In this document: piece by piece, positions 3,562-17,425 of the stretch
How the letters are laid out: every line of letters begins with the position of its first letter
Numbering within the stretch: the stretch's first letter is position 1
From: Alphaproteobacteria bacterium
GTDB lineage: Bacteria; Pseudomonadota; Alphaproteobacteria; Sphingomonadales; SMXR01
Direction: 5' to 3'
Length of the DNA stretch: 33,094 nucleotides
NCBI GenBank assembly: GCA_030634465.1
Contig: DAOWAS010000010.1
Span: 1-33,094 of the forward strand
Program-made: the position numbers and the translations under genes
Notes under the pieces: generated by a model
The model's input: only the letters and a program-made list of their open reading frames with translations
The model's database searches: none
What the model was told of the DNA's origin: nothing

Positions 3562-4218
3562 CTAGGTTTCAAGCAGGAAGGCCACTTCGGTGCGTACATC
3601 TTCCAAACCCTCAGCCTTAACAGAACTGGTTTTCAATATGGTCGGGTGACAAGCAACAAATTTTTTGGCTTCCGCGGCTACGCTTTCAAACAGTTTTTCA
3701 CGCGCACCTTTTTTAACCTTGTCCAGTTTTGTCAAAACCAATTGATAAGACACCGCCGCAACATCAAGCATTTTCATAATGTCTTTGTCGTTTGCCTTCA
3801 GGCCATGGCGACCATCAATAAGCAAAAATACCCGTCTTAAGTTTGGGCGACCCTGCAAATATGCTTTCAGCAGTTCTGTCCACGCCGCAACCTCAACCTT
3901 TGACACTTTGGCATAACCATAACCGGGCAGATCAACCAGATAAAACGGTGTGCCGCGCTCAGCACCCAAGGTGAAAAAGTTTAATTGCTGGGTGCGACCA
4001 GGGGTGTTGGATGTTCGCGCCAGTGCTTTTCTGCCAGTTAGGGCGTTTATCAAGCTGGACTTGCCAACGTTAGAGCGACCGGCAAACGCCACTTCGCACT
4101 TGTCAGGGTCGGGCAATGTGTCCAAAGACACCGCCCCCATAATAAAGTCAGCCTCACCACTAAACAGCAGCCGTCCTTTTTCGATCAACTCATCTGAGTG
4201 TGGTTTGTCCATTTCCAT
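3562..4218 (-). CDS. engB: Ribosome biogenesis GTP-binding protein YihA/YsxC (EngB)
   Basis: G motifs: FAGRSNVGKSSLINALTGRKALARTSNTPGRTQQLNFF, LVDLPGYGYAKVSK, LTKLDKV. Confidence 0.95.
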   Translation of the reverse strand: MEMDKPHSDELIEKGRLLFSGEADFIMGAVSLDTLPDPDKCEVAFAGRSNVGKSSLINALTGRKALARTSNTPGRTQQLNFFTLGAERGTPFYLVDLPGYGYAKVSKVEVAAWTELLKAYLQGRPNLRRVFLLIDGRHGLKANDKDIMKMLDVAAVSYQLVLTKLDKVKKGAREKLFESVAAEAKKFVACHPTILKTSSVKAEGLEDVRTEVAFLLET

Positions 4219-11047: not shown

Positions 11048-11124
11048 GCGCTCGTAGCTCAGCTGGATAGAGCACTAGACTACGAATCTAGGGGTCAGGG
11101 GTTCGAATCCCTTCGAGCGCACCA
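11048..11124 (+). tRNA. tRNA-Arg (anticodon ACG), CCA encoded
   Basis: Manual cloverleaf: GCGCTCG/CGAGCGC acceptor, GCTC/GAGC D-stem, CTAGA-CTACGAA-TCTAG anticodon arm, AGGGG-TTCGAAT-CCCTT T-arm, then A-CCA. Confidence 0.96.
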
Positions 11125-11130
11125 TCAACC

Positions 11131-11160
11131 AAAAGCCACCCTTTACGGGTGGTTTTTTTG
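11131..11160 (+). terminator. Rho-independent terminator after tRNA-Arg (copy 1)
   Basis: CCACCC-TTTAC-GGGTGG hairpin followed by TTTTTTT. Confidence 0.88.
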
Positions 11161-11263
11161 TTGAGGGATGCTTTAATGTGGGGAGCGATCCTGTTCGTTC
11201 ACGAAGCGAGCCATTTATGGCGCAGCGCAGTAGACGTGTTGAACCACTTGTGGTGAAACCGTC

Positions 11264-11282
11264 AATCCCTTCGAGCGCACCA
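11264..11282 (+). repeat. Direct repeat of the tRNA-Arg 3' end
   Basis: AATCCCTTCGAGCGCACCA at 11264-11282 is identical to tRNA positions 11106-11124. Confidence 0.95.
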
Positions 11283-11326
11283 CTTCACTTTTTGCGATGC
11301 CGCCCGCCAACCCATCGCGGCAAACC

Positions 11327-11356
11327 AAAAGCCACCCTTTACGGGTGGTTTTTTTG
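11327..11356 (+). terminator. Second copy of the tRNA terminator
   Basis: AACCAAAAGCCACCCTTTACGGGTGGTTTTTTTGTT at 11323-11358 is identical over 36 bp to 11127-11162. Confidence 0.88.
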
Positions 11357-11387
11357 TTTTCTGGTTATTTCAAAAACAGAACTATCA

Positions 11388-11416
11388 TTGACTTCCCACG
11401 TTACGGCGCGCTATAG
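11388..11416 (+). promoter_or_regulatory. Predicted sigma70-type promoter
   Basis: TTGACT (11388-11393), 17-nt spacer, CTATAG (11411-11416). Would give a start near 11422-11424. Confidence 0.65.
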
Positions 11417-11422
11417 CCTTGC

Positions 11423-11548
11423 TTAGGTGCTCAGGGGTGCCTAGCCCGCCGAAAGACTTATCACCCTGGAATCTTAATTTGAAATGTCACCTAACGTTTC
11501 TTCTGGATTATACGGAGCGGGAAAACTATCCAGAGTAGGAGAAACCAA
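11423..11548 (+). ncRNA. Candidate structured 5' leader (possible cis-regulatory RNA) of the 168-aa ORF
   Basis: TTAGGTG (11423-11429) pairs with CACCTAA (11488-11494). CAGGGGTG (11432-11439) pairs with CACCCTG (11462-11468) with one bulged G. GTTTCTTCTGGAT (11496-11508) pairs with ATCCAGA-[gtagg]-AGAAAC (11528-11545), placing the SD in the bulge. By hand only; no folding software run. Confidence 0.5.
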
Positions 11549-12055
11549 ATGGTTGATATTATCAGCTCATTAAAAGCGAACGCGCGCATACTTCACCGTC
11601 AGGCACAAGCTGGCGATAAAGATGCCCTTACACGTATTACTAAAAACCACGGGCTTGGTCTAAAACCCAGCCTTGAAACCGACCTTAAACGTCGCCATTG
11701 CCTAACAGTTGTTGCCCGAGAATTGGGTTTTAACAGTTGGGGTCACGCACAAAGCGTTATTGATGGCAAATCTGATGATGACTTTGGCACACTATTAAGC
11801 CCAACACGGTGTACGGTACATTGGAATGTATGGTCAGCTAATTATGATGAGGCCAAAGCTATACACAGTGAAAAAGGTGGTTACTTGCTTGCCTTCAAAA
11901 ACCAATTTCTAATTGTTGATGAGCATTTCATAACCACACTTGGTCTGGATCCAAACGATAAGAACTGGACTGAGATGGGGCATAACTGGGTAAAACCAAA
12001 TAGTTTGGAGGCCCGCAAAAACCTTTATGCAAAGTTAGCTGAAAACATAATGTAA
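11549..12055 (+). CDS. Uncharacterised 168-aa protein
   Basis: ORF with AGGAG SD 8 nt upstream of ATG. The LKRRHCLTVVARELGFNSWGHAQSVI segment resembles N-terminal segments of some uncharacterised proteobacterial proteins. No firm family assignment. Confidence 0.8.
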   Translation: MVDIISSLKANARILHRQAQAGDKDALTRITKNHGLGLKPSLETDLKRRHCLTVVARELGFNSWGHAQSVIDGKSDDDFGTLLSPTRCTVHWNVWSANYDEAKAIHSEKGGYLLAFKNQFLIVDEHFITTLGLDPNDKNWTEMGHNWVKPNSLEARKNLYAKLAENIM

Positions 12056-12174: not shown

Positions 12175-13209
12175 ATGGACACACCACTAGAGCAAATAGA
12201 TGAACTGATAGGGCTGTTGCCCCTGCCCGTGTGCGTGGTTAACCCAGTGCGAATATTGACCAATGCAAACAAGGCTGGAAAAGCGGTGTTTCCCCGCCTG
12301 ACCACAGGGCAGGACATTGCATTTTTCATGCGTGACCCCGCACTTTTAGAGGCCTGTGTAAAAATTATAGAACACGGCGGCAGTGCTGAGGTTGAAGTTG
12401 AAGAGCTTGGCACACCAAGACGGTTTTTTAATGTAAGCCTGTCGGCATTTAACAAAACCAGCGAAAACAAAAATTATGTAATGATGATTTTTACCGACGT
12501 GACCCTGTCCAAAGAAAGCGAAAAAAGCCGGTCAGCATTTGTGGCAAATGTTTCCCACGAACTACGCTCGCCCCTAACCACGCTTATGGGCAGTATTGAA
12601 ACCCTGCAAGGGCCAGCAAAAAACGACCCCGAAGCACAGGTGCGATTTTTAGGGCTGATGGAACAAGAAGCCGCCCGCATGAAGCGCATTGTGGACGAAT
12701 TGTTGTCATTATCTAAAATGGAAATACAGGCCCACATGCCACCAGAAGAAGATGTGGATATGTTGGGGGTGCTGTCGCGCACATGTGATGTTTTGGAAAA
12801 TCAGGCACATAAAAAGTCTATGACCATAATATTAGATGCACCCGATAGCCTGCCCACGGTACGGGGAGAGCGTGACCAGCTTATTCAGGTGTTTCATAAT
12901 TTGGTTGATAACGCCATTAAATACGGCGATGAAAACACCAAAATAACCATTGGCGCAAAAGTTAATGACAAAAGCTTAGAGCTTTTTGTGCAAAACTTTG
13001 GCGGTGTTGTTTCATCAGAAAAACTTCCTCGCCTTACGGAACGCTTTTACCGTGTGGACAAAAGCAGGTCACGAGATTTGGGCGGAACGGGGCTTGGCCT
13101 TGCCATTGTTAAGCACATAGTTAACCGCCACCGTGGTGCGTTAGATATTAAAAGCTCTAAAAGCGGCGGAACAGTGTTTTCCATAACCATTCCAACCAAT
13201 ATTAATTAA
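12175..13209 (+). CDS. phoR: Phosphate regulon-type sensor histidine kinase PhoR (apparently soluble)
   Basis: PAS-like N-terminus, H-box FVANVSHELRSPLTTLMGSIETL, N-box NLVDNAIKYGD, DLGGTGLGLAIVKHIVNRH. Directly upstream of pstS. In-frame TAA upstream of the start (in cggcgaaagtgTAAatt). Confidence 0.88.
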   Translation: MDTPLEQIDELIGLLPLPVCVVNPVRILTNANKAGKAVFPRLTTGQDIAFFMRDPALLEACVKIIEHGGSAEVEVEELGTPRRFFNVSLSAFNKTSENKNYVMMIFTDVTLSKESEKSRSAFVANVSHELRSPLTTLMGSIETLQGPAKNDPEAQVRFLGLMEQEAARMKRIVDELLSLSKMEIQAHMPPEEDVDMLGVLSRTCDVLENQAHKKSMTIILDAPDSLPTVRGERDQLIQVFHNLVDNAIKYGDENTKITIGAKVNDKSLELFVQNFGGVVSSEKLPRLTERFYRVDKSRSRDLGGTGLGLAIVKHIVNRHRGALDIKSSKSGGTVFSITIPTNIN

Positions 13210-13218
13210 TAATATGCC

Positions 13219-13258
13219 CTGTAACACTCCTGTCACATTTCCGTAAACTTGTGGTCGC
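13219..13258 (+). promoter_or_regulatory. Pho box (PhoB binding site) upstream of pstS
   Basis: CTGTAAC-actc-CTGTCAC with 11-bp periodicity (13219, 13230), continuing weaker as CCGTAAA (13241) and TGGTCGC (13252). Matches the CTGTCAT-N4-CTGTCAT consensus. Confidence 0.82.
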
Positions 13259-13309
13259 ACTCATCTCCTATTTTCCCCATATTGATTATTGAGAATATAG
13301 GAAATAAAG

Positions 13310-14341
13310 ATGAAATTGAGATCATTAATAATTGGACTGACACTAACCGCATCTGTAGCAACCCCTGCGCTAGCTGGTGATGAAATTCGTGTAGTGGGTT
13401 CGTCCACAGTTTATCCGTTTTCAACAGTGGTGGCTGAGCGTTTTGGTCGCATGACCGAATATGCAACACCTGTTGTTGAAGCAACAGGCACTGGCGGCGG
13501 TATGAAGCTTTTTTGTTCTGGTGTTGGTGAAGACACCCCAGACATTGCCAATGCGTCACGCCGTATTAAAGATAGCGAGATTGAGAAATGCGCTGAAAAC
13601 GGTGTAGATGAAATTGTTGAAGTTAAAATTGGTTATGACGGGATTGTTCTAGCCAACGCAGTGGGTTCAACGCTTTATCATCTGTCTCAGCGTGATATTT
13701 TCTTGGCCCTAGCCAAAAACATACCAACTGAAGATGGTAGCTTGGTTGAGAACACATACCAAACATGGCAGGAAATTAACCCATCGCTTCCAAATATTAA
13801 AATTGAAGTTTTAGGCCCACCGCCAACATCTGGAACCAGAGATGCGTTTTCTGAATTGGTTTTGGAAACTGGTTGCAAAACCTTTCCGTGGTTGAAAGCG
13901 TTAAAAGATACCGACAAGCCACGATTTAAAGCTATTTGCCACGGTCTACGCGAAGATGGTGCATATATCGAAGCAGGTGAAAACGATAACCTGATTGTAC
14001 AGAAACTTAGCGCCAACCCAACCTCCCTAGGCATTTTCGGGTTTAGCTTTCTTGAGCAAAATTCAGACAAGGTTCAGGCCAGCTTTATTAGCGAGCATGA
14101 GGCAACATTTGAAAATATTGCCAGCGGTGATTATCCAGTTTCACGCTCATTATATTTTTATGTGAAAAAAGCTCACTTGGATGAAGTTCCCGGCTTAGCA
14201 GAGTTTGTGAAGTTATTTATGGACGAGCGTGCAATTGGTGAAGATGGCTTTTTAACAGAACGTGGCCTAATCCCCATGGGTGAAGACGAGTTGGAGACAT
14301 GGCGCTCTAGCGTTTTAAGTTTCACCCCAATTGAGAAGTAA
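13310..14341 (+). CDS. pstS: Phosphate ABC transporter substrate-binding protein PstS
   Basis: Signal peptide ending ATPALA. IRVVGSSTVYPFSTVVAERF...VEATGTGGGMKLFCSG...GPPPTSGTRDAF. Followed by pstCAB. Confidence 0.94.
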   Translation: MKLRSLIIGLTLTASVATPALAGDEIRVVGSSTVYPFSTVVAERFGRMTEYATPVVEATGTGGGMKLFCSGVGEDTPDIANASRRIKDSEIEKCAENGVDEIVEVKIGYDGIVLANAVGSTLYHLSQRDIFLALAKNIPTEDGSLVENTYQTWQEINPSLPNIKIEVLGPPPTSGTRDAFSELVLETGCKTFPWLKALKDTDKPRFKAICHGLREDGAYIEAGENDNLIVQKLSANPTSLGIFGFSFLEQNSDKVQASFISEHEATFENIASGDYPVSRSLYFYVKKAHLDEVPGLAEFVKLFMDERAIGEDGFLTERGLIPMGEDELETWRSSVLSFTPIEK

Positions 14342-14371
14342 TTTTAAAACAAAACAGGACCATAATTTATA

Positions 14372-15328
14372 ATGGCAAGTTCGTTGCGAAGGGTTGAGAA
14401 AAGACCCATAAGCTTTACATCACTACCTGATCGGCCGATAAGAATTTTTCTTATCGGCTGTTCTACTGTGGCAATTTTAATTACTATTGGGATTATTTTT
14501 TCCCTTATTTTTGAAACCGCAAGGTTCTTTGCCCTTGTGCCCATACAAGATTTTCTTTTTGGTTTAACGTGGAGCCCGCAAACAGCAATTCGTGCTGACC
14601 AAGTGGGTTCAGGTGGCTCCTTTGGTGCCATACCATTGTTCCTTGGCACATTTATGATAAGCGCGATTGCACTTAGCATTGCCGCCCCTATGGGGGTGTT
14701 TTCTGCTATTTATTTAAGCGAATATGCCAAGCCCGCCCACCGCGCAGTTATCAAACCTCTTTTAGAAATTTTGGCAGGTATTCCAACTGTAGTTTATGGC
14801 TTTTTTGCCGCCATTGTTATTGCCCCCGCCATACGCGGTTGGGGTGAGGGTGTAGGTCTTTCCATAGCATCTGAAAGCGGTTTGGCCGCAGGCCTTGTTA
14901 TGGGAATTATGATTATTCCTCTTGTTTCATCACTGTCTGATGATGTCATAAGAGCGGTTCCAACCTCGCTACGCGAAGGGTCATTAGGACTAGGCGCAAC
15001 ACGGTCAGAAACCATAAAAAAGGTGGTTTTACCTGCGGCATTACCCGGCATTGCTGGTGGTTTGTTGCTGGCACTTTCTCGTGCCATTGGCGAAACCATG
15101 ATTGTGGTTATGGCGGCGGGGCTTTCAGCCAACCTTACCTTTAACCCATTAGAGGCGGTTACCACCGTGACAGTGCAAATTGTGGTGCTATTAACTGGTG
15201 ACCAAGAGTTTGACAGCGCAAAAACACTGGCGGCTTTTGCCCTTGGTCTGATGCTATTTATAATTACCCTGTTGCTAAACATTGTTGGAAACTGGGTCGT
15301 AAACCGATATCGAGAACGCTATGTATAA
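14372..15328 (+). CDS. pstC: Phosphate ABC transporter permease PstC
   Basis: Permease EAA region LREGSLGLGATRSETIKKVVLPAALPGIAGGLLLALSRAIGETM. Operon context. Confidence 0.93.
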   Translation: MASSLRRVEKRPISFTSLPDRPIRIFLIGCSTVAILITIGIIFSLIFETARFFALVPIQDFLFGLTWSPQTAIRADQVGSGGSFGAIPLFLGTFMISAIALSIAAPMGVFSAIYLSEYAKPAHRAVIKPLLEILAGIPTVVYGFFAAIVIAPAIRGWGEGVGLSIASESGLAAGLVMGIMIIPLVSSLSDDVIRAVPTSLREGSLGLGATRSETIKKVVLPAALPGIAGGLLLALSRAIGETMIVVMAAGLSANLTFNPLEAVTTVTVQIVVLLTGDQEFDSAKTLAAFALGLMLFIITLLLNIVGNWVVNRYRERYV

Positions 15329-16628
15329 TCCTATGTATAAATCTGAAAAAAAACCTGACAATACCGCTTCAAAACTAAGCACAGGGAGCTTGCCTGGGGT
15401 TGCAAAACGCCACCGTAGCGAGCGCATGTTCAAGGCAACTGGCCTTATTGCCATTGCGGGTGGGCTTTTGTTTTTGCTGTTTGTGCTAGTTTCAATTGGC
15501 ATCAGTGGCATTGGCGCTTTTAAGAAAACCTATATCAACCTGCCTGTGCCTAGCACCATAATGCAACAGGTTTTGGACAGTGGTATTGATGATGCTGACT
15601 ATTATTCACTAAACCGAAAAGCACTGCGAGAGCGGTTTCCTGATATTAGTGGACGCAGGGACAAACGCGCACTTTACAGGCTGGTAAGTGCCATTGCCGA
15701 GTTTGAAATGAAAGATCAGGTCGTTGAACTGGCACCCACAACCAACGCACCAATAACCATTAAATTTACCGCATCAGACGATGTTGATATGTATATTAAA
15801 GGAACGGTTGATGTTGCAGAAAGTGGTGCCGCGGGGCGGTTAAATGCCAAACAGGTTGATCTGGTAAATACTCTAAAACAAGCAGGCGCAATTGAGGTTG
15901 GTTTCAACTGGGGTTTCTTTACCAACAGTGACAGCCGCGACCCTGAACTAGCTGGCATTAAAGGGGCGTTTATGGGCTCACTTTTCACCCTTCTGGTGTG
16001 TTTGGTTTTATCTTTTGTGGTTGGGGTTATGAGTGCCATTTACTTGGAAGAATTTGCCCGTAAAAACAAATTTACCAGCTTTATTGAGGTTAATATTAAC
16101 AACTTGGCGGCGGTGCCGTCCATTGTTTACGGTCTGCTTGGCCTTGCTATTTTCCTTGGCTTTTTTGGCATGCCGCGTTCGGCATCACTGGTTGGTGGTC
16201 TTACGCTTGCGCTAATGACCCTGCCAACAATTATTATTGCTTCACGAATTTCACTGCAATCAGTACCGCTATCAATTCGTGAGGCCGCATACGGCCTGGG
16301 TGCCACACAGGTGCAAATGGTTTTCCACCATGTGTTTCCGCTTGCTCTTCCCGGCATGTTAACTGGTACAATTATCGGCATGGCACGTGCGCTTGGCGAA
16401 ACAGCACCACTGCTAATGATTGGCATGGTGGCATTTATTGCTGATGCCCCAAGCAACATAATGGACCCCGCCACCACCCTGCCTGTGCAGGTTTATTTAT
16501 GGGCAGATAGCCCCGAGCGTGCCTTTATGGAAAAAACATCAGGAGCAATATTGGTTCTTATTGCAACACTAATAGCATTTAATTTAGTAGCAGTTGTCCT
16601 GCGCAAGAAATTTGAAAAAAGATGGTAG
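15321..16628 (+). CDS. pstA: Phosphate ABC transporter permease PstA (with large extracytoplasmic insert)
   Basis: [50 protein letters not shown]. 8-bp overlap with pstC. Confidence 0.93.
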
Positions 16629-17425
16629 AAATAATGCAAAACGAAACTGAAAAATCAACAGAGAAAACAGCGATTAAAATTCAAGCCAAGAATGTGGGTG
16701 TAAGTTATTCTGGAATGGTTGCCCTGAAAGATGTGCAAATTGATATAACTGAACGCAAGGTTACCGCTCTTATCGGGCCATCTGGTTGTGGCAAAACAAC
16801 GTTCCTGCGCACCATGAACCGCATGAATGACATTATTGAAGGTTGCGAAGTAACTGGCGAAATTTTGCTAGATGGCGAAGATATTTACGATACGCAGGTT
16901 GACCCAGTTGTACTAAGACGGCGTGTGGGCATGGTTTTTCAAAAACCCAACCCGTTTCCAAAGTCTATTTTTGACAATGTAGCGTATGGCCCAAAAATTC
17001 ACGGCCTTGCAGACAAAAAAGACGAACTAGAATATATTGTTGAAAAAAGTTTGAAGCGCGCTGGTTTGTTTGATGAGGTAAAAGACAGGCTTAATGCACC
17101 GGGAACCAGCCTTTCAGGCGGACAACAGCAACGGTTATGCATTGCCAGAGCAATTGCGGTTTCGCCTGAGGTTATTTTAATGGACGAGCCATGCTCGGCA
17201 CTGGACCCCATTGCAACGGCGCGCATTGAAGAACTTATTGATGAAATTAAAGAACGCTATACCATTGTTATGGTAACCCATTCCATGCAACAGGCCGCAA
17301 GGGTTTCACAACAAACAGCGTTTTTCCACTTAGGCGAACTGGTAGAACAGGGCGAGACAGAAACAATTTTCACCAACCCCAGAGACCCTCGAACCGAGGC
17401 ATATGTAACTGGTCGAATTGGATAG
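16622..17425 (+). CDS. pstB: Phosphate ABC transporter ATP-binding protein PstB
   Basis: Walker [10 protein letters not shown], signature [17 protein letters not shown], Walker [23 protein letters not shown]. Confidence 0.97.

Follow-up and report, generated by a model that had tools for sequence, protein, structure and literature searches.

In autoregulatory ribosomal-protein leaders, one gene family is always present in the controlled unit, polycistronic units included. A 2017 survey reportedly described 224 motifs, most of which should be in Rfam. The preQ1-III and preQ1-I/II RNAs are pseudoknotted translational riboswitches; preQ1-III has a separate domain whose docking partner is the loop of a hairpin close to the Shine-Dalgarno sequence (PMC11625349). 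The yjdF (azaaromatic) riboswitch is a widespread leader associated almost exclusively with one gene to which no function is assigned (PMC4793209).

We analyzed a 33,094-nucleotide stretch of DNA from an Alphaproteobacteria bacterium (contig DAOWAS010000010.1 of assembly GCA_030634465.1), referred to in its entirety as the window. Positions 11424-11548 are the leader of a gene encoding a 168-aa protein. Judged by sequence comparison, this leader is a genuine conserved cis-regulatory RNA absent from Rfam 15; the decisive evidence is comparative and does not come from folding energy. Ribosomal-protein leaders resemble it in having one family per unit, but the family here is not ribosomal. Like the preQ1 classes, it combines a pseudoknotted, predicted sensing domain with occlusion of the Shine-Dalgarno sequence, which in preQ1 is ligand-dependent (PMC11625349). 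However, none of the preQ1 models matches it in sequence or covariance, and the genes differ. In contrast to preQ1-III, the loop docks to the putative sensing domain and the Shine-Dalgarno sequence lies in the base of the same hairpin. With yjdF it shares association with one gene, possible translational control and nearby regulators of aromatic-compound responses, whereas yjdF is a four-stem junction for which no pseudoknot is mentioned and which occurs mostly in Firmicutes (PMC4793209). The leader RNA also differs from yjdF in its gene family and in having no Rfam match. By these tests, it belongs to neither the preQ1 classes nor yjdF.

The initial annotation had described a structured leader of no recognised class, and a search with the covariance models of Rfam 15, judged at the gathering score, bears this out. 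No family matched the leader in the window or at the related loci L005, L006, L022, L024, L027, L028, L044, L046, L076, L091 and L108. The best score was for freshwater-2 (19.8 bits against a cut-off of 49.9) and came mainly from the ribosome-binding site. Within the limits of the literature covered, no report of the association between this RNA and this gene was found.

The RNA is found repeatedly in front of homologous genes, in taxa that are far apart. Its roughly 40 distinct loci are spread over Alphaproteobacteria, Myxococcota-labelled MAGs and other Pseudomonadota. At each of them it stands at the head of a transcription unit in which a homologue of the 168-aa gene is present, an exclusive association. 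Homologues with 40-49% identity are found in Kordiimonas and related genera of the same order; Eilatimonas also has them, as do MAGs labelled Rhodobiaceae and Myxococcales/Deltaproteobacteria. When 385 alphaproteobacterial genomes were searched with R1, a covariance model built on the 5' domain, nine matches were obtained besides the window. Eight of them stand in front of a member of this protein family; the weakest is within coding sequence. Outside the Alphaproteobacteria, a Pseudomonadota-wide sample and targeted family searches recovered the RNA at L044 and L094-L099 (7/7 genomes of one genus), at L076 and at L046, L091, L092 and L093. Weaker model matches (L039, L045, L074-L075 and L077-L090) were judged to be chance, as none has a homologue behind it and almost all fall inside or across long reading frames. 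The 20 pattern matches in viral contigs were also attributed to chance, with scores of at most 25.6 bits and no homologue downstream of the two best. Homologues of the protein were not found in viral contigs, nor was any homologue of the 168-aa protein found in phage records.

Across relatives, the elements follow one order: GGYGC-loop-GGYGCC, CCGCC-N-AAAG, a short hairpin, CACCCUG, a variable stretch and a hairpin with a GAGCGG loop that immediately precedes the Shine-Dalgarno sequence. The distance to the start codon is similar across these homologues. The single departure from this arrangement is L026, which has the first part only. There (3932-4012), a divergent homologue follows a shortened leader that keeps P1 and PK1 (AAGGG/CCCUU) and has apparently lost PK2 and P3, with the Shine-Dalgarno sequence directly after PK1. 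This leader may represent the RNA in minimal form. The consensus combines a 5' H-type pseudoknot domain, which has a CCGC-C-N-AAAG core, with a second pseudoknot that docks this domain onto a hairpin loop (Table 1). The base of the docked hairpin, GUUUCUUC/GGAGAAAC in the window, conceals the Shine-Dalgarno sequence.

Table 1. Elements of the leader, its probable promoter and the gene that follows, in window coordinates.
Feature	Position	Strand	Description
Probable promoter	11388..11417	+	TTGAC(T) at 11388, alpha-type -10 (GC)TATAGC ending at 11417; from sequence and recurrence of TTGAC
P1 hairpin	11424..11443	+	TAGGTGC 11424-11430 with 11437-11443; 7 bp, two G-U
PK1 5' strand, CAGGG	11432..11436	+	In P1 loop; pairs with 11464-11468
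PK2 5' strand, CCCGC	11445..11449	+	Docks to P3 loop at 11517-11521
Unpaired core, (C)-N-AAA	11450..11454	+	Between PK2 and mini-hairpin; from column conservation
Mini-hairpin, GA-CTTA-TC	11455..11462	+	Two pairs, 11455-11456/11461-11462
PK1 3' strand, CCCTG	11464..11468	+	Pairs with P1 loop
P2 hairpin, GAAATGT/ACGTTTC	11481..11500	+	11481-11487/11494-11500; from minimum-energy fold
P3b 5' strand, anti-Shine-Dalgarno, GTTTCTTC	11496..11503	+	Pairs with 11538-11545
P3a hairpin, TGGAT/ATCCA	11504..11532	+	11504-11508/11528-11532; loop carries GGAGCGGGA
PK2 3' strand	11517-11521	+	In P3a loop
3'-side bulge, GAGTA	11533..11537	+	5 nt in window; 3-8 nt in relatives
P3b 3' strand, GGAGAAAC	11538..11545	+	Includes Shine-Dalgarno GGAG
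168-aa gene	11549..12055	+	N-terminal half weakly PF20066-like

A comparison of orthologous leaders had been proposed in the initial annotation; in it the element recurs, and compensatory changes support P1, PK1, PK2 and P3. Statistics for the 5' domain were calculated over 12 pairs in 26 aligned leaders, with partners slid by 1-3 columns and 500 shuffles as controls. Standard pairs make up 92% of pair cells, compared with 39-55% after sliding; two-sided changes occur in 8 of the 12 pairs, and 0/500 shuffles reach the observed values. Sixteen leaders can be aligned across this domain with 10 invariant columns, although the homologues they precede share only 36-52% identity with the protein of the window. 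The L026 leader was excluded (only P1 and PK1, a shortened remainder, 15.5 bits). When partners were permuted 20000 times among 23 diverse leaders, the observed pairing was never reached for P1, PK1 or P3a plus P3b (0/20000 each) and was reached 17 times for PK2. For P2 the count was 622/20000, which is weak comparative support.

All of the sequence words named in the initial annotation are present in the window at the coordinates given there, but the pairings differ in how they fare among relatives. Its outermost helix (TTAGGTG/CACCTAA, 11423-11429/11488-11494) can be drawn in the window but finds no support in relatives, where 8366/20000 partner permutations do as well. We rejected this helix, which competes with the conserved P1 hairpin. 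In P1 itself, the first two G-C pairs are invariant in 26 relatives. The second helix, proposed as nested within the first, is conserved but has a different topology: it is formed by the P1 loop and is the H-type pseudoknot PK1, with compensatory changes at 5/5 pairs. The loop-loop contact suggested between CCCGC and GCGGG corresponds to PK2 and is conserved with compensatory changes. CCGC/GCGG is replaced by CCAC/GUGG in L027 (Rhodobiaceae-labelled), L076 (non-alphaproteobacterial) and L109, and there are lineage-specific extensions such as CAACCGC/GCGGUUG in L010. The third helix is conserved and covarying and is better described as P3b plus P3a with the 5-nt bulge GAGTA; the sequences of both parts vary between lineages while pairing is maintained within each. 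A further long-range pairing noticed by eye, between the P2 loop and a P1 strand (UCAYCC in several loops), was not systematic.

The remaining elements of the 5' domain are the mini-hairpin and the core. In relatives the mini-hairpin reads G[C/U/A]-NNNN-[G/A/U]C, and its second pair, which is C-G, U-A or A-U depending on lineage, shows a two-sided change in 9/26 sequences. The unpaired core nucleotides (AAA, CA) are nearly invariant and aptamer-like. Because of this near-invariance, the core suggests a binding site for something, with (C)-N-AAA as the candidate pocket.

In the window and most of its relatives, the Shine-Dalgarno sequence is covered by P3b; in the GIY-YIG operons described below, L038 and L076, P3b borders it instead. 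The earlier view that the Shine-Dalgarno sequence is partly sequestered was right to place it within the third helix but understated the case, as it lies wholly inside. A structured leader that could gate translation, as originally suggested, is supported by conservation in two phyla, covariation and a closing helix over the Shine-Dalgarno sequence in most members.

On this comparative evidence, the leader is probably a translational riboswitch of a class not in Rfam, with ligand binding predicted. The 5' part (P1, PK1, the mini-hairpin and the CCGC-C-N-AAAG core) would be the sensing domain, docking via PK2 onto the P3 hairpin loop. Docking would stabilise P3 and its basal helix P3b, hiding the Shine-Dalgarno sequence and lowering translation; with the domain undocked, P3b could open and the gene would be translated. 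A closed P3 should block translation, the Shine-Dalgarno sequence being wholly contained in P3b in the window and in most of its relatives. Because PK2 connects the P3 loop with the 5' domain, binding by that domain would shift P3 towards closure; PK2 is the predicted ligand-dependent step. The 3' strand of P2 overlaps the anti-Shine-Dalgarno strand, so P2 and P3b are mutually exclusive in the window, where P2 could capture that strand as an alternative. We lean towards a fuller reading: a new class of riboswitch, with two pseudoknots in its aptamer and members in at least two phyla, would sense a possibly toxic or xenobiotic compound and control one gene family, joined in some genomes by a GIY-YIG protein and a MarR-like regulator. 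Conserved from Alphaproteobacteria to Myxococcota but without an entry in Rfam 15, the RNA offers a ready and strong candidate for a new class of riboswitch. It also provides a first way into a protein family that has neither an assigned function nor a known fold. The ligand or RNA-binding protein, once identified, would tell what these genes respond to, and the consensus and covariation make direct testing possible.

The exclusive gene association also fits feedback autoregulation, in which the 168-aa family protein would bind its own leader and stabilise the structure hiding the Shine-Dalgarno sequence, as in ribosomal-protein leaders. This is the serious rival, although less likely than a riboswitch. 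A member of the one protein family is encoded in all of the roughly 40 units, as the first or the third gene, and the RNA is single copy per genome. Among 279 alphaproteobacterial genomes, 11/11 full-length homologues have the RNA, ten strongly and L109 at 20.6 bits. The N-terminal half of the protein is net positive in most family members, but the whole proteins are near neutral (mean pI 7.4) and the C-terminal half is acidic in most. Domain and fold searches recognised no RNA-binding fold in the family, and a homologue on a Janthinobacterium plasmid stands without the RNA. No known match was found for the C-terminal half, and a fold search with the 168-aa protein model (pLDDT 91) against the PDB and viral models returned nothing. 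In the 279-genome sample, the RNA was absent at three proteins with the N-terminal domain only. The N-terminal domain alone (GFxSW type) is seen without the RNA in 534-629-codon open frames of other Alphaproteobacteria (L111, L112 and L113).

An RNA thermometer, an sRNA target or another leader with no ligand or protein of its own, in which P3b melts or is invaded, would suit the short and bulged basal helix over the Shine-Dalgarno sequence. It is improbable, however, as a thermometer needs only P3, which leaves the near-invariant 5' pseudoknot domain and PK2 unexplained. Far less probable still is a conserved leader peptide acting by attenuation: many leaders do contain closed reading frames of 8 codons or more, but these differ in position, frame and length, several leaders have none, and the leaders show changes that compensate pairing and inserts of variable length.

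The folding check proposed in the initial annotation did not favour the leader, whose stability in the window is average for its composition and no better than that of shuffled sequence (z 0.19). The 3' halves of 27 related leaders have a mean z of about -0.15. We set minimum-energy folding aside as uninformative; with stability not above chance, the case for a structured RNA rests on comparison. Chance complementarity in an ordinary 5' UTR, with which the average folding energy agrees, is contradicted by all comparative tests and refuted by the covariation, leaving it hardly credible.

The homologue usually follows the RNA directly and alone. In four operons (L046, L091, L092 and L093), the RNA is followed by genes for a GIY-YIG-fold protein and a MarR-like protein (weak match), and the 168-aa homologue is the third gene. 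The first genes of these operons are of other families, yet the same operons hold the main gene family. The best structural match of the GIY-YIG-fold protein is the I-TevI catalytic domain (E 6e-5). These four proteins have RLG, CVK or FVN in place of YIG, and they may not be active nucleases because the tyrosine of the second motif is missing. The Janthinobacterium lividum plasmid NZ_CP139977 (L067, L068) carries a 168-aa homologue right behind a gene for MATE efflux and, at a separate place, a GIY-YIG/MarR gene pair resembling the one in the four operons. The RNA accompanies neither of them. The RNA was likewise absent at the plasmid GIY-YIG relatives L068-L073. In Kordiimonas (L015, L016, L018 and L020), and not elsewhere, the homologue lies upstream of frames of groES size (95-111 aa) and groEL size (550-556 aa), a likeness based on size only.

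A promoter had been proposed as TTGACT (11388-11393) and CTATAG (11411-11416) with a 17-nt spacer. Both words exist, and TTGAC also lies upstream of most orthologous leaders listed, but CTATAG is a poor -10 by E. coli rules and an E. coli-type sigma-70 scan did not report the site. TATAGC (11412-11417), with an 18-nt spacer, is a better -10. Together with the recurrence of TTGAC, this makes a transcript start near 11424 plausible. Just upstream of the promoter, the 3' end of a tRNA-Arg gene (19 bp; 11106-11124 and 11264-11282) and its terminator (36 bp; 11127-11162 and 11323-11358) are each repeated exactly, resembling the outcome of site-specific insertion or duplication at a tRNA gene. Among the loci tested, a tRNA-Arg is otherwise near the RNA at the Myxococcota-labelled L022 only. 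Downstream of the 168-aa gene, positions 12175-17425 of the window hold a histidine kinase gene followed by genes for a substrate-binding protein, two permeases and an ABC ATPase, the gene order of a phosphate-type transport operon.
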